The notes under the pieces: generated by a model
The model's database searches: none
The model's input: only the letters and a program-made list of their open reading frames with translations
Told to the model about the DNA's origin: nothing
Assembly (NCBI RefSeq): GCF_000190435.1
Contig: NC_015152.1
Location: 2,858,458 to 2,922,457, forward strand
Source: Sphaerochaeta globosa str. Buddy
GTDB taxonomy: Bacteria > Spirochaetota > Spirochaetia > Sphaerochaetales > Sphaerochaetaceae
Direction of reading: 5' to 3'
Length of the DNA: 64,000 bases
Shown here: one piece after another, positions 51,674 through 61,323 of the stretch
Layout of the letters: each line of letters opens with the position of its first letter
Position numbering within the stretch: position 1 is the first letter of the stretch
Program-made: the position numbers and the translations under genes

Positions 51674-51710
51674 TTGGTAAAGGTACAGAGCAAGGCTATA
51701 CTGAAGACAA
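51674..51710 (+). promoter_or_regulatory. Sigma-70 promoter of the exopolysaccharide locus, leaderless start
   Basis: TTGGTA at 51674-51679 and TATACT at 51697-51702 are spaced by 17 bases. Transcription should begin at 51709-51710, which is the A of the ATG used by the first gene. No ribosome site is present, so a leaderless mRNA is likely. Confidence 0.55.
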
Positions 51711-52438
51711 TGAAGCGCAAAAAACCTCCGAAGCCGGGTCGCATGCGACCTCTTTTCCTTGTAGCCCTGTTGTTTTTGCTAGCTCTTGTACTCAGCCTTC
51801 CCTTTGTGCTGTGGCTGCTTACGCCAAATCAGGATGTACAAGTCACCGTTTACGACAAGAGTGTAGCGACTTTAAAAGCCGAACAACACCAGAATCTGGG
51901 GTGGTTTCTCAGCCACTTCAAGGTTCCCACCCAAGAAGGTGAGCGTTTCAGGACACAAAAAACCTATCTGGGGTACCATCCAAAAAGTGAGAATCCAATT
52001 CGCGACCTTTCGAGCATGGATGAAAGAACCGATCTGCTTTATATTGCCGATACCTATGGTGTGTATAAAAGTGGTGAGGGCTTCTTACGCACTCTTTCAG
52101 AAGGGGAGAGCAATCTTATCTGGGGGGGAAGTAGTAATTCCGATGTCCAGGTTCTCCGTACCTTCCTCAATCGGGAATCCAGCAGTACCGTTGTTGCCGA
52201 ATACAACACCTTCGCCACCCCCACTCCCTCCTATGTACAGGCACAGATGTATGAAGTACTGGGAACCCGATGGACCGGATGGACCGGCATGTACGTCAAC
52301 GACCTCTCCAAAGGTGGGGAAACCCCTGCTTGGATTATGGACCTTTACGCCCAGAATTGGGAATTCTCCGGCAGCGGCATTTTGCTGTACAACACCGATG
52401 ATGAAATTGTGGTATTGAGAAACGGCATTGAGTTGTGA
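51710..52438 (+). CDS. Membrane-anchored N-terminal part of a split glycosidase-like protein
   Basis: A 242-residue product: basic N-terminus MKRKKPPKPGRMR, one membrane helix (about 14-37), then an extracytoplasmic domain with DLLYIADTYGVYKSGEG and NLIWGGSSNSDVQVL. The domain was not recognised by family. It ends at TGA 52436-52438, and the next gene starts in the same frame only nine bases later. The last residues (IVVLRNGIEL) and the following MTFSFTEKG read as one continuous beta-sheet segment, so I suspect a single protein of about 1059 residues broken by a nonsense codon. If translation restarts, the halves may still work together. Confidence 0.6.
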   Translation: MKRKKPPKPGRMRPLFLVALLFLLALVLSLPFVLWLLTPNQDVQVTVYDKSVATLKAEQHQNLGWFLSHFKVPTQEGERFRTQKTYLGYHPKSENPIRDLSSMDERTDLLYIADTYGVYKSGEGFLRTLSEGESNLIWGGSSNSDVQVLRTFLNRESSSTVVAEYNTFATPTPSYVQAQMYEVLGTRWTGWTGMYVNDLSKGGETPAWIMDLYAQNWEFSGSGILLYNTDDEIVVLRNGIEL

Positions 52439-52447
52439 CCTGAGCAC

Positions 52448-54889
52448 ATGACCTTCTCCTTTACCGAAAAAGGAACGGATATCCTGGGGCTCTCAGGCTC
52501 AACAGCCTACCGCCTTCTCTTTGATATTACCGAGCCGCTCGGTGGTACTGAGGTGTTGGCTACCTACAACCTTGATGTCACCGATACAGGAAAAGCGTTG
52601 CTCGATCAGTTTGGTATCCCCTCCTCCTTTGCCGCCATCCAGCTCAAGCAAACTGCAAACCACCGCTCGTATTATCTGGGAGGCAACTGGGCATACAGTA
52701 AACGGACATTGAATCTGTTTAGACTCAAAGGCTTGTACTCCTTACTAAAGACTGTTGCCACCGGGGAACGCGCTTTCACCTGGAAATTCTATTTCCCCAT
52801 CCTCAATGCAATCTTTGCCGAGGCTGAAGAGCGGAAAACCGAAATTTTACCTCCTCTTTCTCGTGAGATTGCCACTATTGCGCAGAGCAGAATGGTCAGC
52901 CGAGCCACCAGTACCACCCTCGAACTGTACAGCCAAGGAGCGTGGAAGCCCTACTTTGTGTATGGCATGAACCTGGGCATAGCCATGCCGGGTCGGTGGT
53001 TCACCGAGTTCCCCCAGGACAAGAGCCTGTACTACCGATGGATGGAGCAGATGGGAGAGCTTGGGGTGAATACCGTACGCATCTATACCCTGCTGGACCC
53101 ACAGTTCTACCAAGCCTTCGCACTGTACAACCGGATGCATCCCCAAAAGCCTCTGTTCCTCTTGCAGGAGGTATGGCCTGAAGAAGAGCCACCGGGACAC
53201 GATTACCTACAGCCTGCCTACCAGAAGGCCTTTGAAGAGGAAATCATCAACGTCGTCGATGCCATTCACGGGAAAGCCAGTATAGCTGAACGCAAAGGAA
53301 GAGCCTTCGGGGAGTATACCACCGATGTCTCCGCCTATGTACTGGGATATCTGGTGGGGCGCGAGCTCGAACCGCAGGAAGTGGAAGAGACCAATCTTTT
53401 GCACGCCGGCTACCGCTACAGCGGCCAATACATCAGTACTACAAAGGATGCGACACCCACCGAGAGCTGGCTTGCCCAAAGCTGTGACTACCTGCTCGCC
53501 TACGAACAGGAAACCTACGGTTGGCAACACCCCGTCTCCATCGTCAACTGGCCCACCCTCGACTATCTTGTCCACGAATCAGAGCGTGATGAGGATGGCA
53601 AGAAGGTGCGAGAATACAACGACCGTACTACGGTGGACATCAACCACTTGGTGGTTGGGAGCCGCAACCAAGTCGGTCTCTTCGGCTCGTACCACATCTA
53701 CCCCAACTATCCCGATTTCATGAACAACGAGCCCTCCTTTGAAGCGTATGAGGATGAGAATGGAAGGTTTCGCTACGGTGGGTACCTCAAGGCTTTTATG
53801 GAAGGACATCGACAGTACCCGGCTGTGGTTGCCGAGTTCGGTATTGCCACCGGCATGGGCAATGCCCATACAAGTCCCGATGGCTACAACCACGGAGGAC
53901 TTACCGAAAAACAGCAGGCAGAGGGCATTATCCGCATGTTCGAGGCCATGCAGGCTGAGGGCTACAGCGGGGGCATCATCTTTGAATGGATGGATGAGTG
54001 GGCAAAGAAAACTTGGACCACCGAACCTTACATGGTTCCCTATGAGCGGCAGATTCTGTGGCACAATGCCGTCGACCCCGAACAGAACTACGGTATTCTT
54101 GCCTATGAGTCGGTCAAACCAAAACGAAGCGGGAATTCGCTTCTCGGGGAAGGTTTGGTCCAGCGCATGGAAGTACGTTCAGACGCCTCCTTCCTGTATA
54201 TTGATATCACCTTGCAACGAGCATTGAACTTTGGAGCCGAGCAGGTAGTAGTCGGCATCGATACACTCTATCGCGACCGTGGAGAGCTCGCATATTCTGT
54301 CTTGCTCGACTATAAAGGGCCGTCCGGAATGGAGTATATAGTAGTGCTCGACTCCTTTGAGCATGCACGACTGCTCGCCTTACCGGAAGCGAACTATACC
54401 ACCTACCAATTCAGTACGGCGCCTTCCTTGCAAGAAGAAGGCCACTTTGAGCCGATGAGCAAACTGATCAACAAACGGCGGATGTTGGAGGACGGAACAG
54501 TAATCGAGGCAAAGTATGAGGATTCGAGCCACCTCAGATTCGGCAGTCTTGAGGGCAATACCAATCACTGGGACATGCAGGGAAAGGAGCTTTCCATCCG
54601 CATCCCCTGGACACGCATCAATGTCAGCGATCCTTCTTCTTCCCAAGTACTCGACGACGAGAAGCTCTACTACAGCGATCCGCTTCGCGACCAACTTGCC
54701 ACTACGGCAACCGATGGCATTGTGCTCAGCGTTGTGGTCTCTGATACAGGTAAACAAACCATCCTCGATGCACCGCAAGCACTACAGCTGACTCTTTCGG
54801 GATGGAACCAACCTATATACCAAGAACGACTGAAAGCAAGCTATGATTTGCTGAAGGCATATTTTGCCGAGGAGAGAGCACATGAATGA
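52448..54889 (+). CDS. Clan A glycoside-hydrolase-like protein, second part of the split gene
   Basis: An 813-residue product without its own signal peptide. Central sequence is a TIM-barrel glycosidase: YGMNLGIAMPGRWFTEFPQ, then GVNTVRIYTLLDPQFYQAF, SIVNWPTLDY, VAEFGIATGMGNAH (candidate nucleophile Glu) and GGIIFEWMDEWAKKTW. A C-terminal beta-sandwich of about 220 residues follows. It would trim or transglycosylate the polymer made by the GT2 synthase downstream. The start ATG 52448 has no good ribosome site, which supports the view that it is the remainder of a longer gene. Its end overlaps the next gene by 8 bases. Confidence 0.65.
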   Translation: MTFSFTEKGTDILGLSGSTAYRLLFDITEPLGGTEVLATYNLDVTDTGKALLDQFGIPSSFAAIQLKQTANHRSYYLGGNWAYSKRTLNLFRLKGLYSLLKTVATGERAFTWKFYFPILNAIFAEAEERKTEILPPLSREIATIAQSRMVSRATSTTLELYSQGAWKPYFVYGMNLGIAMPGRWFTEFPQDKSLYYRWMEQMGELGVNTVRIYTLLDPQFYQAFALYNRMHPQKPLFLLQEVWPEEEPPGHDYLQPAYQKAFEEEIINVVDAIHGKASIAERKGRAFGEYTTDVSAYVLGYLVGRELEPQEVEETNLLHAGYRYSGQYISTTKDATPTESWLAQSCDYLLAYEQETYGWQHPVSIVNWPTLDYLVHESERDEDGKKVREYNDRTTVDINHLVVGSRNQVGLFGSYHIYPNYPDFMNNEPSFEAYEDENGRFRYGGYLKAFMEGHRQYPAVVAEFGIATGMGNAHTSPDGYNHGGLTEKQQAEGIIRMFEAMQAEGYSGGIIFEWMDEWAKKTWTTEPYMVPYERQILWHNAVDPEQNYGILAYESVKPKRSGNSLLGEGLVQRMEVRSDASFLYIDITLQRALNFGAEQVVVGIDTLYRDRGELAYSVLLDYKGPSGMEYIVVLDSFEHARLLALPEANYTTYQFSTAPSLQEEGHFEPMSKLINKRRMLEDGTVIEAKYEDSSHLRFGSLEGNTNHWDMQGKELSIRIPWTRINVSDPSSSQVLDDEKLYYSDPLRDQLATTATDGIVLSVVVSDTGKQTILDAPQALQLTLSGWNQPIYQERLKASYDLLKAYFAEERAHE

Positions 54890-56870
54890 CCTTACCAAAC
54901 CCGTACAGGTTGCAGAAGACTTGTGGTGGGTCGGTTCAGAGGGAATCCATCAGAGTTTACAGTGCAATCCATTTCTCTACATCAAGGATGGACTGGGCAT
55001 TCTCTTCGACCCGGGCTCAACCTTGGACGGCCACATTGTCCTGGAGAAAACCAAGAGTTTACTCCCGCTTTCCAATCTCAAAGCCATCGTATGCAGCCAT
55101 CAGGACCCGGATTTGTGTTCGGCCATTCCCCTCTTTGAAGAAGCCGGCTTCAAAGGGGACATCTGCTGCCATGAGCGTACAGCGCTGTTGATTCAGTACT
55201 ATGGGGTGAAAAGCCCTTTCTATATCGTAAACCACCATTTCTATTCCTATACCTTGGGTAAGAATGCCAGTATCGGTTTCATCTTCGCTCCCTACCTCCA
55301 CTTCCCAGGTTCCATCATGAGCTATCTGCCGGACCAGCAGGTTCTTATCAGCGGCGACCTCTTCGGTTCGATCACCGCCGATTGGCACCTATATGCCGAT
55401 GAGAACTATCTCGATGGCATGAAGGCATTCCACGAAGTCTACATGCCCAGCCATGAAATTCTTGCATCTGCCATGCAAAGCCTGGAAAGCTACCCCATTT
55501 CCCTCATCTGCCCCCAGCATGGTTCAATTATCAAAGAGAACATTGAGCTCTCTATCTCAACGCTCAAGGCCATGCCATGCGGCCTGTTTCTGCAACCCCG
55601 TCTCCAAACGCTTCCTGTTGATGGTGGCGTTCGCTCCCTGCTCGACCAAGTGGTTCTCCGCTTGATAACCATCCATGGGGAGCAAGAAGTTAAAAAGACA
55701 TTTGAGAATTCTCCTTTCTCCCTTGCGATCAAAAAGCGGCAAATAGCAAAGACCACCATCGCCGAGGACCAGATGTGGGAGAGCTTTTTCTCGTTCATCG
55801 AGGAAAGGAGGGGGGTGAGCTACCTCTCTTCCATCTCTTCACTGGTGGAATTGCTCGGAAAACAATACGGCCTTACCATTCCTTTGGCTTTCTCCACCCT
55901 CATTGTCGATTCAGAGCGTAAGTTTAAGGAAAAGGAAGCCGAACTCAAGGCGTTGGAAGAACGTCTCAAGGACTTGGAAGAGAGCATGTACCGCGATCCA
56001 GTGACCAAGCTCTACAACAAGGAATTTCACCAAGCCTTCTTAGTAAAAGAACTGGCCTTGGGCTCTTCCGTAGTCTCCTTGGTGCTCAGTATCGACAACT
56101 TGGAACGAATCAATCTCGATTTCGGAAGCAGCGAAGGGGACCGCACCATGCGCATCCTTTCAGAACTTCTGATCCAGAGCGTTGAACCGAAGGTCCAGGT
56201 ATGTCGTATCACCGGGGGAATGTTCGCTCTCTTATGTACTTCCCTGACCAAGGAAGAAGCCTTACAGCGGGCTGCAAAACTGCGAAATCTCATAGCAGAG
56301 GAGGACCGATTCATCGTCCCGATTACGGTGTCGATGGGAATTATCCACTCTGATGAAATTGACGAAGCCAGTCGTGAGGATGTGACGCTCATGGCAGCCT
56401 ATATCAATCAAAACGCAGCGTTCCGACTCCGTCTTGCCAAAAAGAGTGGAGCCGGGGGAATTATTGACTGCTCTACAAGCGAAGTGGGGAGCCGCTCAGC
56501 CTATACCATTCTCCTGGTGGATGTTCCGGGTTTCTCCCGGGATTTGCTCAAACAAACCTTGGAAAAACAGCGCTACCGTGTGGTGGTTGCCGACAATGGA
56601 CTGGAAGCGAAAAACAAGTTGCTCTTGGGTGGCATTGATCTGATTGTATGTGAATTGCTCATCCCCAAGCTCAGTGGCCTGACCCTTCGCAAGGAATTGC
56701 TCAGAGAACCTCTCACCGCAAAAATCCCCTTCATTCTCATGTCGGTTAACAAGCAGGAACAGACTGTCAGAAGAGCTTTCGACTTAGGCATCCAACACTT
56801 TTTCGCCCGCCCCTTGGCCTTGTATGAGTTGACTGGCCTCGTCAACCTCATTGCAGAAAAGGGGGCCTAA
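54882..56870 (+). CDS. ODP-like di-iron MBL domain fused to degenerate GGDEF and pseudo-receiver
   Basis: A 662-residue cytoplasmic protein in three parts. Residues 1-230 form a metallo-beta-lactamase fold of the flavodiiron/oxygen-binding ODP type, with ligands His73, Asp75, Asp77 (SHQDPD), His140 (YLHFPGS), Asp159 (SGDLFG) and His213 (PQHGS), and no flavodoxin domain. A coiled coil near 355-375 leads to a GGDEF fold, whose signature is GGMFA at 445-449 in place of GGDEF, so it is probably inactive. The C-terminal receiver (about 540-660) has Glu591 in place of the phosphoacceptor Asp. I infer an oxygen- or NO-sensing adaptor that talks to the synthase gene starting at 56872. ATG 54882 follows GAGGAGAG. 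Confidence 0.82.
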   Translation: MNDLTKPVQVAEDLWWVGSEGIHQSLQCNPFLYIKDGLGILFDPGSTLDGHIVLEKTKSLLPLSNLKAIVCSHQDPDLCSAIPLFEEAGFKGDICCHERTALLIQYYGVKSPFYIVNHHFYSYTLGKNASIGFIFAPYLHFPGSIMSYLPDQQVLISGDLFGSITADWHLYADENYLDGMKAFHEVYMPSHEILASAMQSLESYPISLICPQHGSIIKENIELSISTLKAMPCGLFLQPRLQTLPVDGGVRSLLDQVVLRLITIHGEQEVKKTFENSPFSLAIKKRQIAKTTIAEDQMWESFFSFIEERRGVSYLSSISSLVELLGKQYGLTIPLAFSTLIVDSERKFKEKEAELKALEERLKDLEESMYRDPVTKLYNKEFHQAFLVKELALGSSVVSLVLSIDNLERINLDFGSSEGDRTMRILSELLIQSVEPKVQVCRITGGMFALLCTSLTKEEALQRAAKLRNLIAEEDRFIVPITVSMGIIHSDEIDEASREDVTLMAAYINQNAAFRLRLAKKSGAGGIIDCSTSEVGSRSAYTILLVDVPGFSRDLLKQTLEKQRYRVVVADNGLEAKNKLLLGGIDLIVCELLIPKLSGLTLRKELLREPLTAKIPFILMSVNKQEQTVRRAFDLGIQHFFARPLALYELTGLVNLIAEKGA

Positions 56871-56871
56871 G

Positions 56872-59721
56872 GTGTCCAGCAACTTCGCCATCATCATGAC
56901 CTTTGCCGTAGTGGCACTCAACCTTTTCGTTTTGGCCAGCCTTGTATGCCTGCGCTTGGTACGAGCGAGGAGAAAGCGCAAACTTGAGCATACAGAAGTT
57001 TTGTTTTTAGCCCAGCTTGAGGCAGAAACACCAGACTTCTCAACCTTTAGGGCCAGGACCCTGCTCCAGCTTTACAGCAGGCTGTGCGACAGTCTGCAGT
57101 TGGAAGCCTCAGTGCATGACAGCATTCTGAGCTTTCTTTGCACATCCCCCTTCGTCAAGAAACAGACCAAACGCCTGAAATCCCCTTTTTTCATCAGACG
57201 CATTGAGGCTGCAGTCCGTCTCAAGCCACTGCTCTGTCTTAGTGAATACCGAACACTGTTTTTACAGGTGCTATCTGCAGAAAAAAGCCAAGTCGTTACG
57301 CTGTACCTATTCCAAGCCCTCACCTGGGTACAGGAGAAGCGTGCCATCATTCCCATGCTCAGACGCCTAAGCAGGGCGACTCCGTGGATGGCAGGCCGCT
57401 ACCGGGCCCTCTTGATCAGCTATGAATTCCAATTGTTGCCCTATCTGAAAAAGCGACTTTCCGTCGACCGCATGTACCTTGGGCTTCTCATCTGTGAATA
57501 TGCCGCTCTATATCCCACCGATGTACTGAAGTCCTATCTGGTCCGTCACGCACAAAGTAAGAATATCCAAGTCCGTAAGAGTGCGTTGTTCGCTTTATGC
57601 CAACATTTTCCTGAGGAACTGCTCAAACCTGAGTTCTTGGAAAGTCCCTTTCCAAGCACAAAACTCTCTGTAATCCGCGCATATGCACGCATCGGGGATA
57701 AACGATACATCCCTGCCCTCTTGGCATACAGCAAGTACACTTCAATGCGCGACCAATTGGTGCAAAGTCTTTCCGAGATGGCCTATAAGGACCCTACGCT
57801 GCTCAATGACTTTTTGTTGCGGTTTGAGAAGGCCCGCAGTAAAAGCGAAGCAATCGTTTTAGCCAAAGTGCTGGATAACCGTCTGACCTACATCCTGAGT
57901 GCCTACCAAGGGGATTTGGATGCACAGCTCGTCAATCTGGTTACCAGGTTGGCTGAAGAGAAACATATCAGCGGTTTGGTGCAATTTCTCAATACCAATA
58001 CCGATATCCACAAACAAGAGCAGTTGGTAGCACTGGTCAGGAAAATTGCCAAGCGCAACAAGCAGCTCAAGCTCTTGTTCTTCGCCTACCTGCATCCGTC
58101 TGTGTATCAAACACTGAACCTCTCCAAGCCGGAGGTAGTCAAACCTTCAGCACAAGCACATCAGGAGAAACCCCAACGACTGAATCTGATTCTCCTTTTG
58201 ATTCTCACCCTTCTGATCTTCCCCTTGATCATCCTCCTCTCAGAAATTCCCAACCTCATCGACTTGAGTTTGGGAGAATTTCTTTCCCTGTATGTAGTCC
58301 GCTTCAATTACTTATTGGTCTACTATTCGGTTACGATCAATGTCATCTATCTTGCCATGCTGGCCATTTCGTATCGGGGGGCGGGAGTACAGAATCGACT
58401 CTGGAGGGCAAAGGATACACGCATGCTTTTCACCAAAGGGGTGCTTCCTTCGGTCTCGATCATAGCTCCGGCCTACAATGAGGCGGCCAATATTATTGAG
58501 AGCACCAATAGCCTGCTCAACCAGCAATACCCCGACTTTGAGCTGATTGTTGTCAACGACGGGTCCAAGGACGACACGCTTAAAAAGTTGATCATGTACT
58601 TCAACTTGGAAAAACGCGACCAGTTGGTCCCCAAGAGGCTGAAAACACGAGCGCTGAGGGGAATCTACAAGAACAAGAACATTCCCAACCTGATTGTGGT
58701 GGACAAGGTGAACGGGGGGAAGGCCGACTCGCTGAACCTGGGGCTGAATGTCGCTACCAAAGTATTCTTCTGCGGCATCGATGCCGATTCCTTGCTGGAA
58801 CCCGATGCCCTGCTCAGGGCGGTCTCGGTGATGCTCGACCACAGTACCGAGAGTATTGCCAGCGGCGGCAATATTTGCCCGGTAAACGGCTGTGATGTCG
58901 AATTGGGCAATTTGGACTCGATCGGCTTGCCGTCGAAGTTCCTTCCCCGGCTTCAGAGTCTTGAATATATCCGTTCCTTCATGACCGGCCGCGTAGGTTG
59001 GGCGCGCTTGAATATGCTGCTGATCATCAGCGGAGCCTTCGGCATATTCCATCGTGACCGTGCAATTGCCACCGGCGGTTACCTTACCAAGAGCGGCAAG
59101 TATCACAAGGACACAGTGGGTGAGGATATGGAGTTGGTGGTCAGGCTTTCACGCTACATGCGTGAACGCAAGCTTCCCTATCGGGTGCAGTATGCAAGCA
59201 ATGCCAACTGCTGGACCGAGGTCCCCGAGAAGTGGAAAGTCCTGCATCGCCAGCGGGACCGCTGGCATCGCGGGCTCATCGATATCCTGCTCTTCCACAG
59301 CACCATGATAGCCAATCCCCGCTACGGACGGCTTGGTATGGCGGGCATGCTCTACTACTTCATCTTTGAGCTGCTCGGACCGTTTGTGGAAGCACAAGGG
59401 TTGTTGTTTGTGTTCATCGGAGCCCTCATGGGTCTGATAAACCTTCCCATCGCCCTTGCCTTGTTCACCTCTACCATTCTCTTGGGGATTCTTGTCTCAC
59501 TCTCCGCTCTGCTTATCAGCGAGTTCGACCGTCCGCTCTACTCAAAGCGGGATATGTTGCGTTTGGTGTGGATGGCAATCATCGAGAATTTCGGAGTACG
59601 CCAAGTGATCAGCTTGTGGCGGGTGAGCGCCTATTTCAGCGCCATGCGTAAGAACCGCGGATGGGGGGCACAGGTGAGGACGGGCTTCAAGGCCGGTGGG
59701 GCACAAACGAAAACGAAGTAA
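56872..59721 (+). CDS. Processive family 2 glycosyltransferase with HEAT-like repeats
   Basis: A 949-residue inner-membrane polysaccharide synthase. One helix at about 5-24 precedes 370 residues of paired helices resembling HEAT repeats. After two helices (about 438-505) comes the GT2 domain, with SIIAPAYNEA near 528, VVNDGSKDD, GGKADSLNLGLN, GIDADS near 636, TVGEDMEL and the processive motif QRDRW near 792. Four C-terminal helices complete the channel. The arrangement recalls cellulose and beta-glucan synthases, but no PilZ domain is seen. GTG 56872 is one base after the previous stop, with GGGGG upstream. Repeats may receive the signal of the ODP-like protein. Confidence 0.88.
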   Translation: MSSNFAIIMTFAVVALNLFVLASLVCLRLVRARRKRKLEHTEVLFLAQLEAETPDFSTFRARTLLQLYSRLCDSLQLEASVHDSILSFLCTSPFVKKQTKRLKSPFFIRRIEAAVRLKPLLCLSEYRTLFLQVLSAEKSQVVTLYLFQALTWVQEKRAIIPMLRRLSRATPWMAGRYRALLISYEFQLLPYLKKRLSVDRMYLGLLICEYAALYPTDVLKSYLVRHAQSKNIQVRKSALFALCQHFPEELLKPEFLESPFPSTKLSVIRAYARIGDKRYIPALLAYSKYTSMRDQLVQSLSEMAYKDPTLLNDFLLRFEKARSKSEAIVLAKVLDNRLTYILSAYQGDLDAQLVNLVTRLAEEKHISGLVQFLNTNTDIHKQEQLVALVRKIAKRNKQLKLLFFAYLHPSVYQTLNLSKPEVVKPSAQAHQEKPQRLNLILLLILTLLIFPLIILLSEIPNLIDLSLGEFLSLYVVRFNYLLVYYSVTINVIYLAMLAISYRGAGVQNRLWRAKDTRMLFTKGVLPSVSIIAPAYNEAANIIESTNSLLNQQYPDFELIVVNDGSKDDTLKKLIMYFNLEKRDQLVPKRLKTRALRGIYKNKNIPNLIVVDKVNGGKADSLNLGLNVATKVFFCGIDADSLLEPDALLRAVSVMLDHSTESIASGGNICPVNGCDVELGNLDSIGLPSKFLPRLQSLEYIRSFMTGRVGWARLNMLLIISGAFGIFHRDRAIATGGYLTKSGKYHKDTVGEDMELVVRLSRYMRERKLPYRVQYASNANCWTEVPEKWKVLHRQRDRWHRGLIDILLFHSTMIANPRYGRLGMAGMLYYFIFELLGPFVEAQGLLFVFIGALMGLINLPIALALFTSTILLGILVSLSALLISEFDRPLYSKRDMLRLVWMAIIENFGVRQVISLWRVSAYFSAMRKNRGWGAQVRTGFKAGGAQTKTK

Positions 59722-60433
59722 TAACCATGTCGGCGGGCCTTACCGGTATTGTTCCCTGATAGAGCCAGAAGTTGATGCGGAACCGAACCTTCCCCTCGGT
59801 GGGGCTTGGGCGATGGTGCCACTGCTTGATCAGCATGGTACTACTCTCCATTTGGTCGGGGTCGACAGAGCCGTGGTAGGACGAAAAGGTTACCCCATCA
59901 GCTGTCCAGACAATGCGATGGGTCGTTACATTGCCGTTCAAAGCCGGCTTGAAGACGAAAATGCGTGAGGGATCGGCATAGGGCTGGACCACATATTGAA
60001 ACAAAGTCCCACTTGGTTGTCCCCATGCTGCAAACTCAATGTCTATTTCCCGGTTGTACTCTTGTGGTGCGGTATCCCAGGTAAAGAAACCTGCCACCAC
60101 GTTTGGGTCGTACTGCTGGATGTCAGTCTCAACAGTGAATGTATAGGTACCGTACCCGACCCGCTCACGGGTGAATATCTCAGTAGCCCACCACGTTCCC
60201 TGCTGCTCTTGTATGGTCAGATGCAAGCCCCAGTCGTCGACCCAGACTGCATCCTCGGTTCCCCGAAAGTAGTTCGGTCCGGGGGCTGTAGGGGTAAGAC
60301 TGGACTTCATTCTCCAGTGCAGGTTGCCGAATTCCAGTTCCCTCGGACCGGTCTTCACTAGAGGAACGTCTTGTGCGTACAGGGTGCAGGAAAGCAAACT
60401 TACCAACGCCAATAGAACCCATAAAGCTTTCAT
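59687..60433 (-). CDS. Secreted GH16 beta-glucanase-like protein
   Basis: A 248-residue protein with signal peptide MKALWVLLALVSLLSCTLYA. The GH16 jelly roll has RVGYGTYTFTVETDI and the catalytic motif REIDIEFAAWG (Glu-x-Asp-x-x-Glu type, near 131-141), then the aromatic QPSGTLFQYVVQPY. Such enzymes cut beta-1,3 or beta-1,3-1,4 glucans. It overlaps the end of the synthase gene by 35 bases on the opposite strand and follows the deacetylase by 2 bases, so a surface beta-glucan is a plausible product of the locus. ATG 60433 follows GGGAGG. Confidence 0.85.
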   Translation of the reverse strand: MKALWVLLALVSLLSCTLYAQDVPLVKTGPRELEFGNLHWRMKSSLTPTAPGPNYFRGTEDAVWVDDWGLHLTIQEQQGTWWATEIFTRERVGYGTYTFTVETDIQQYDPNVVAGFFTWDTAPQEYNREIDIEFAAWGQPSGTLFQYVVQPYADPSRIFVFKPALNGNVTTHRIVWTADGVTFSSYHGSVDPDQMESSTMLIKQWHHRPSPTEGKVRFRINFWLYQGTIPVRPADMVITSFSFVPHRP

Positions 60434-60435
60434 AC

Positions 60436-61323
60436 CTACCTCCCGGTCAAGACAAGCACCTTCTGCACAAAGACATCGGTACTGTAGTTCTCCACATTCA
60501 TTGCCCCGATTTCCCATACATTGAGGTTTTTTGTCAACACTGCCTGGGGGATGCTGGTCCTGATCGCCTGGTACCCCGAGGCGCGGGCTTCATCGATGAT
60601 ACTGCGTTCCCCTGCCCCGTTTCCGAACGGCAGAGCCAAAACGGTGACACCCTCGGCTGTCTGTTCCTCGATAAGGCGCTTGGAGGTATCCGCCTCATGA
60701 CGGATTTCCTCAACGCTGAGTTGCCCCATCATCCGATGGGTGAGCGAGTGTGATTCAAAGTAGAATAGTTTTCTGCCTGAGAGCGTTCGGTAATCACTCA
60801 TCTGCCGCACTTGCTCCCAGCTCATGTAGCCCACTTCTCCGATGAAGTTGGGAACCAGGAAAATGGTAGCCTCAAGTTCATACTGACGAAAGAGCGGATA
60901 GACGATGGCATACAGGGAAAGGTCTCCGTCATCAAAGGTAATGATCACCTGGTCGGTGGTCGCTTTGGAGCCCTTGGCCAATACATCCCTGAAATTGGTG
61001 ATGGTGAAATTCCGTTTGAGAAAAGCCAGGTCGTGCTCAAAATTATAGAGATCGCGATTGTAGACATTCCCCGTCCTGCCGAACACGATATTGTGGTAGA
61101 GCACTACCAAGAGCTTGGGATCCTTTCTTTGGGGAACCTGAACGGTACTATCCAAGCCCGGCAGCGTCTGTACGGGAAGCAGGCCCTGCTCATGGGTACT
61201 CCAATATCGTACTGCAGGGGCTTCTGTTCTACTGAGCGGCGCACTTTGCTGTTCGGGGACCACCTCCGCCGATACAGCGAGCATAAGGGTGAGCAAAATT
61301 AGGGTAAGCAGGTATTTTTTCAT
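60436..61323 (-). CDS. Secreted polysaccharide deacetylase (NodB domain)
   Basis: A 295-residue exported protein: signal peptide MKKYLLTLILLTLMLAVSA, then a NodB domain with LLVVLYHNIVFG, VIITFDDGDLSLYA (TFDDG motif), ESHSLTHRMM (His metal ligands) and ALPFGNGAGE. This resembles PgaB/IcaB-like deacetylases, so N-acetylated or O-acetylated sugar polymers could be substrates. Its ATG overlaps the stop of the CruF-like gene, so it is transcribed with the carotenoid genes as well as with the GH16 gene. Confidence 0.88.
   Translation of the reverse strand: MKKYLLTLILLTLMLAVSAEVVPEQQSAPLSRTEAPAVRYWSTHEQGLLPVQTLPGLDSTVQVPQRKDPKLLVVLYHNIVFGRTGNVYNRDLYNFEHDLAFLKRNFTITNFRDVLAKGSKATTDQVIITFDDGDLSLYAIVYPLFRQYELEATIFLVPNFIGEVGYMSWEQVRQMSDYRTLSGRKLFYFESHSLTHRMMGQLSVEEIRHEADTSKRLIEEQTAEGVTVLALPFGNGAGERSIIDEARASGYQAIRTSIPQAVLTKNLNVWEIGAMNVENYSTDVFVQKVLVLTGR

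Follow-up and report, generated by a model that had tools for sequence, protein, structure and literature searches.

The locus studied here raises the question of how a polysaccharide synthase can be regulated by an adjacent protein that carries a putative oxygen sensor and two output domains that both look inactive. It lies in the 3.32 Mb genome of Sphaerochaeta globosa, in a stretch of 64,000 nucleotides that was analysed as a whole (the window). The regulator gene (54882–56870, forward strand, from the ATG at 54882 to the stop at 56870) encodes a soluble protein of 662 amino acids composed of an ODP domain, a linker, a pseudo-GGDEF domain and a pseudo-receiver domain. The first-pass annotation of this DNA had placed a polysaccharide synthase gene one base away, and this is correct: the GTG start codon (56872) of a HEAT-repeat and processive GT2 polysaccharide synthase of 949 amino acids (56872–59721, forward strand), whose D,D,D,QxxRW-type motifs are all intact, is one base past the regulator stop.

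A gene for an exported glycoside-hydrolase-like protein (51689–54889, forward strand; class assigned by eye, without a Pfam match) precedes the regulator gene in the same operon, an arrangement shared by most close relatives. In S. globosa, it is broken by an in-frame TGA (52436–52438) that is either a nonsense mutation or a sequencing error, most close relatives having a continuous frame of about 1070–1120 amino acids. Two convergent neighbours on the reverse strand are kept across the genus, a GH16/ExoK-like secreted protein (59690–60517) and an IcaB/PgaB-like polysaccharide deacetylase (60436–61323). No RNA element above the gathering score was found within the 64-kb window, and a defence-system reading was discarded as PADLOC gave no match. 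According to hydropathy, the regulator has no transmembrane segment, its two hydrophobic peaks corresponding to strands inside the cores of the GGDEF fold and of the receiver fold, which excludes a membrane sensor.

Pfam profiles recognize three domains in the regulator: ODP (PF19583, E-value 1.6e-50, residues 26–214), GGDEF (1.6e-14, residues 370–497) and Response_reg (8.4e-15, residues 543–653). The AlphaFold2 model of the full protein (mean pLDDT 87.6; pTM 0.53, so that the arrangement of the domains is unsure) recovers the ODP fold (Z 31.3 to the zinc-reconstituted Thermotoga maritima ODP 6qwo, 240 residues, 2.7 Å) and the GGDEF fold (Z about 23), in agreement with the domain composition proposed initially. 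The ODP domain, a flavodiiron-type metallo-beta-lactamase (residues 1–235, 54882–55586, forward strand), reaches 172 bits for a profile cut-off of 27.2 and is the top ODP match of the genome. The six metal positions listed by the first-pass annotation are those found by residue check, namely His73-x-Asp75-x-Asp77 (55098–55112), also supported by alignment with the T. maritima and T. denticola ODPs, His140 (55299–55301), Asp159 (55356–55358) and His213 (55518–55520), all on the forward strand. All six align with identical residues of the solved ODPs of T. denticola and T. maritima, and no flavodoxin domain was found in the regulator, again as annotated. Leu78 follows the HQDPD motif, the seventh ligand of flavodiiron proteins (the His after HxExD) being missing as it is in sensor ODPs. 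At the sequence level, none of the ligands of the solved di-iron ODPs is missing from the domain, which is predicted to bind iron and O2; in the chemotaxis of T. denticola, a domain of this kind serves as O2 sensor (PMC7666581). In the AlphaFold2 model, it is followed by a helical middle domain (residues 241–335, 55602–55886, forward strand), which is present in full-length ODP-bearing relatives and missing from a shorter type (for example L210, L211 and L213), and by a long signalling-helix-like helix (residues 335–369, 55884–55988, forward strand) that runs into the GGDEF fold.

The pseudo-GGDEF domain (residues 370–530, 55989–56471, forward strand), delimited by Pfam, alignment and structure match, keeps its fold in the model (Z 23.4 to PleD 2v0n, 155 residues, 1.5 Å; many GGDEF structures give Z of about 23). 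It had been described as degenerate with a GGMFA motif; the motif is indeed lost, but this reading was one residue off, and alignment on 'CRYGGDEFAIL' gives the register Thr444-Gly445-Gly446-Met447-Phe448 (56211–56225). The first metal-binding Asp of the fold is replaced by Ser403 and the RxxD I-site is missing. To situate these losses, searches were run on relatives, on named genomes and on 395 Spirochaetia genomes. The resulting 57 distinct GGDEF-REC relatives include the S. globosa protein and many proteins from metagenome bins, and the counts given below are sequences and not independent events. None of the 57 has an intact GGDEF motif, only two have Asp at position 403 and a single one has the RxxD I-site. 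Other residues are conserved (Asn411 in 55, Asp420 in 51 and Arg515 in 56 of the 57); in the alignment, Asn411 and Asp420 match what we take to be the base-contacting positions of active cyclases, by reference to PleD.

The pseudo-receiver domain (residues 540–660, 56499–56861, forward strand; Pfam and alignment) has Glu591 (56652–56654) at the phospho-Asp position, a claim of the first-pass annotation that the residue check confirms. The acidic pair has lost one acid (Val548) and Arg643 stands in place of the usual Lys, so that the CheY-like phospho-acceptor set (Asp, acidic pair, Lys) is incomplete. Of the 57 relatives, 53 have Glu at the phospho-site and 4 have Asp. The losses of the GGDEF motif, of the I-site and of the phospho-site residues predict, without proving it, that the protein neither synthesizes c-di-GMP, nor binds it in the canonical way, nor is phosphorylated; as first proposed, both outputs are probably catalytically dead, and this throughout the family. 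The apparently dead domains are nevertheless under purifying selection, dN/dS being about 0.05–0.15 in both of them for Sphaerochaeta species pairs (Nei-Gojobori; rough values, several pairs having dS >1). The S. globosa genome encodes 31 GGDEF and 9 EAL domains, and a profile search detected no PilZ domain either in the synthase or across the genome. The switch through which c-di-GMP usually acts on such synthases is therefore absent, and a PilZ-controlled (BcsA-type) route is ruled out.

The partner of the regulator is composed of a first transmembrane segment, a HEAT solenoid, two further transmembrane segments (TM2-3), the GT2 domain and additional transmembrane segments. The HEAT domain is preceded by a basic stretch located after TM1 and is therefore probably cytosolic. 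The synthase has the hyaluronan synthase/BcsA-like membrane fold (Z 23–25) and invariant DXD, ED and QRxRW motifs (D637, D639, E751-D752, Q794-R797-W798); its best NCBIfam match, PgaC/IcaA, is far under the cut-off. Direct adjacency to a HEAT-GT2 synthase was found for 55 of the 57 regulators, the other two being on fragments without one. Conversely, the synthase was found in 51 of the 395 Spirochaetia genomes, and none of these genomes has a HEAT-fused synthase with readable upstream DNA and without the regulator. The exceptions of the survey are a copy cut at a contig end (G251), a GT2 without HEAT (G137) and a contig that retains only an 82-amino-acid receiver-bearing end piece (G267). The pairing is thus kept across many families of Spirochaetia, and this survey of the class rules out a chance pairing. 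The spirochaete GT2 without HEAT (L300, in G137) has as neighbours three single receivers together with a TPR/YaiO protein and a Cache-PAS histidine kinase, which represents a different set-up for the control of a related synthase.

The first-pass annotation had also proposed to look for the same three-domain order beside GT2 synthases. The GGDEF-REC part and its synthase recur as described above, but the ODP part varies: the domain has intact ligands in 25 of the 57 relatives, has damaged ligands and a profile match in 15, is reduced to remnants, as judged by eye, in 3, is absent from 12 and is cut by contig ends in 2. A tree built from the GT2 catalytic domain (52 rows, partial ones being left out; 37 of 49 branches well supported; rooted on Bacilli) shows at least four switches between the intact and non-intact states. 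Since many regulators with damaged ligands or without any ODP still adjoin this synthase, the partnership cannot in general depend on the di-iron site, and the 'oxygen-tuned' switch put forward initially does not hold as a general statement. A di-iron O2 or redox input can only be a property of the Sphaerochaetaceae-type clade and of a small number of other clades.

Comparison with Bacilli provides a possible origin for the regulator. Among 349 genomes of Bacilli, only that of the Gram-positive Trichococcus palustris (L104) encodes the HEAT-fused synthase, and the regulator beside it has damaged ODP ligands; on the GT2 tree, this synthase branches as the sister of the Sphaerochaetaceae-type clade, which is suggestive of horizontal transfer. 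In many other Bacilli, separate genes encode the regulator, a HEAT protein (about 350 amino acids), a GT2 (about 475 amino acids), a GH-like protein, a small receiver and a hybrid kinase. This REC-GGDEF-REC/HEAT/GT2/GH-like/small REC/hybrid kinase operon (L295–L340) is widespread, and no description of it was found in the literature searched. Ten of the 42 candidate regulators from Bacilli have both an intact GG[DE]EF motif and the phospho-Asp (L298, L303–L305, L308–L311, L313, L314), several with an RxxD; of the 42, 20 have Asp at the phospho-site, 15 have Glu and 7 have another residue. Cyclase loss and the Asp-to-Glu change thus occur in these cousins too. Short regulators of about 270 amino acids with a Glu-receiver also adjoin HEAT and GT2 genes in large-genome Bacilli (L320–L340; also L299:4664-5560), and their N-terminal 140 amino acids, which match GGDEF with an hhalign probability of 18%, are perhaps a decayed GGDEF domain.

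Homologues that occupy this position with both GGDEF and receiver intact had been named at the outset as evidence against inactivity. None was found in Spirochaetia (0 of 57 with an intact GGDEF) and those of the cousin operon in Bacilli point to an active ancestor rather than refute inactivity in Spirochaetia. Given these active cyclases, the spirochaete protein looks as if it had descended from a phospho-regulated diguanylate cyclase and been disarmed. In the simplest history, an active phospho-regulated cyclase would have served the synthase locally and would have been disarmed in several lineages, the direction of this change depending on the rooting of the tree on Bacilli. These systems can be ordered in a natural series that starts with an active phospho-controlled cyclase in the Bacilli and ends in Spirochaetia with a fully dead form, fused to an ODP or devoid of it, the type of synthase staying the same. 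It therefore becomes testable how a second-messenger enzyme turns into a protein-contact regulator and what roles the conserved pseudo-GGDEF and Glu-receiver play.

Several known systems share parts of this architecture. The ODPs of T. denticola and T. maritima (6qnm, 6qrq, 6qwo, 6r9n) are the same domain, with the same six ligands and no flavodoxin part, but they are single-domain proteins described in chemotaxis, whereas here the ODP is fused to a GGDEF and a receiver that are both dead and paired with a polysaccharide synthase. Listeria PssE, Bacillus YdaK and Pseudomonas PelD are degenerate-GGDEF receptors of exopolysaccharide synthases and likewise have a non-catalytic GGDEF in an exopolysaccharide synthase operon. 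PssE retains the RxxD I-site and binds c-di-GMP (PMC4125290), whereas the S. globosa regulator lacks RxxD and adds the Glu-receiver and the ODP; on sequence grounds, the missing RxxD rules out a PssE-type I-site receptor. The REC-GGDEF-REC proteins of Bacilli share the gene order by HEAT and GT2 and the GGDEF-REC tail; they differ by their intact cyclase motif and phospho-Asp, the lack of ODP and the separate HEAT and GT2 genes. In the bacteriohemerythrin-GGDEF protein VcBhr-DGC, a non-haem di-iron domain is fused to GGDEF (PMC8846402), but its di-iron fold is unrelated, its cyclase is active and no synthase partner is described in that paper. In the NELoc-2 locus of Clostridium perfringens, CP4_0467 (HEAT) adjoins CP4_0468 (GT2 'chitin synthase') (PMC2879425), a pair that resembles the operon of Bacilli and for which that paper describes neither a regulator nor a tested function. 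Degenerate GGDEF domains in exopolysaccharide operons (PMC4125290) and the ODP as an O2 sensor (PMC7666581) are thus already known; their combination was not found described, nor were the ODP-GGDEF fusion, the I-site loss, the near-invariant Glu receiver or the HEAT-GT2 partnership, in a literature search that covered few subscription papers.

The reading favoured here, to which an even chance is given, is that the regulator is a non-catalytic subunit of the synthase that would act by contact, with a putative di-iron O2/redox input in the Sphaerochaetaceae-type clade. With outputs that look dead throughout the family and a polysaccharide synthase as partner, signalling by conformation, already suggested in the first-pass annotation, is the natural interpretation; as the disarmed regulator stayed beside the same synthase across the class, control is probably exerted by touch. 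The mechanism could be as follows. The ancestor of the regulator would be a diguanylate cyclase under phospho-control, encoded in this operon. In this clade, the oxidation or O2 state of the ODP di-iron site would alter the helical linker and the signalling helix, and this change would move the tail made of the pseudo-GGDEF and the pseudo-receiver, Glu591 fixing a phosphorylated-like receiver face. The tail would then dock on the cytosolic HEAT domain or on the catalytic loop of the synthase and set the polymer output. If true, this would be a c-di-GMP-independent control of exopolysaccharide in bacteria without PilZ proteins. A broader proposal, held tentatively and at slightly less than even confidence, is that such regulators would make up a widespread class, as yet undescribed, derived from response-regulator diguanylate cyclases that would have come to act on HEAT-GT2 synthases as purely conformational subunits, with phospho-Asp changed to Glu and an exchangeable front-end sensor; the ODP of Sphaerochaetaceae would make polymer synthesis responsive to O2 or iron without c-di-GMP.

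The main rival to this contact-subunit reading is that the pseudo-GGDEF is a receptor for a guanine nucleotide, be it c-di-GMP, GTP or another one, bound in what is left of the base pocket or at a non-canonical site, and that it signals this binding to the synthase in the manner of PssE, PelD and YdaK. The conservation of Asn411, Asp420 and Arg515 despite the lost catalysis, the large c-di-GMP network in a genome without PilZ and the precedent of Listeria PssE (PMC4125290) all speak for it, but the RxxD I-site is missing in 56 of the 57 relatives, both acidic catalytic/metal positions are lost and the conserved residues could serve folding alone; such a receptor is unlikely, if worth serious attention. 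It is also rather improbable that the regulator is a constitutive scaffold or stabilizer of the synthase, with a receiver locked 'on' by Glu591 and an ODP that is a relic or a mere dimerization unit. The near-invariance of Glu591 and the repeated loss of the ODP ligands, or of the whole ODP, while the pairing persists would fit such a scaffold. However, every Sphaerochaetaceae-type member with a complete ODP keeps all six ligands without exception, and dN/dS in this domain is about 0.05–0.11, which argues against a relic. The ODP could finally be an enzyme for O2/NO reduction or hydrolysis that the fusion would merely localize, as its fold is shared with flavodiiron O2/NO reductases; the absence of a flavin domain and the presence of one His ligand fewer than in flavodiiron proteins (Leu78), as in sensor ODPs, make this very improbable.

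Outside this family, stand-alone ODP genes with an intact GGDEF gene, often GGDEF-EAL, directly after them were observed at 25 loci (within L127–L165), a set biased by a search query that contained both domains. These split operons are found in Gammaproteobacteria, Burkholderiales, Aquificota, Nitrospirae and other hosts, and ODP is therefore a recurrent input to such proteins.
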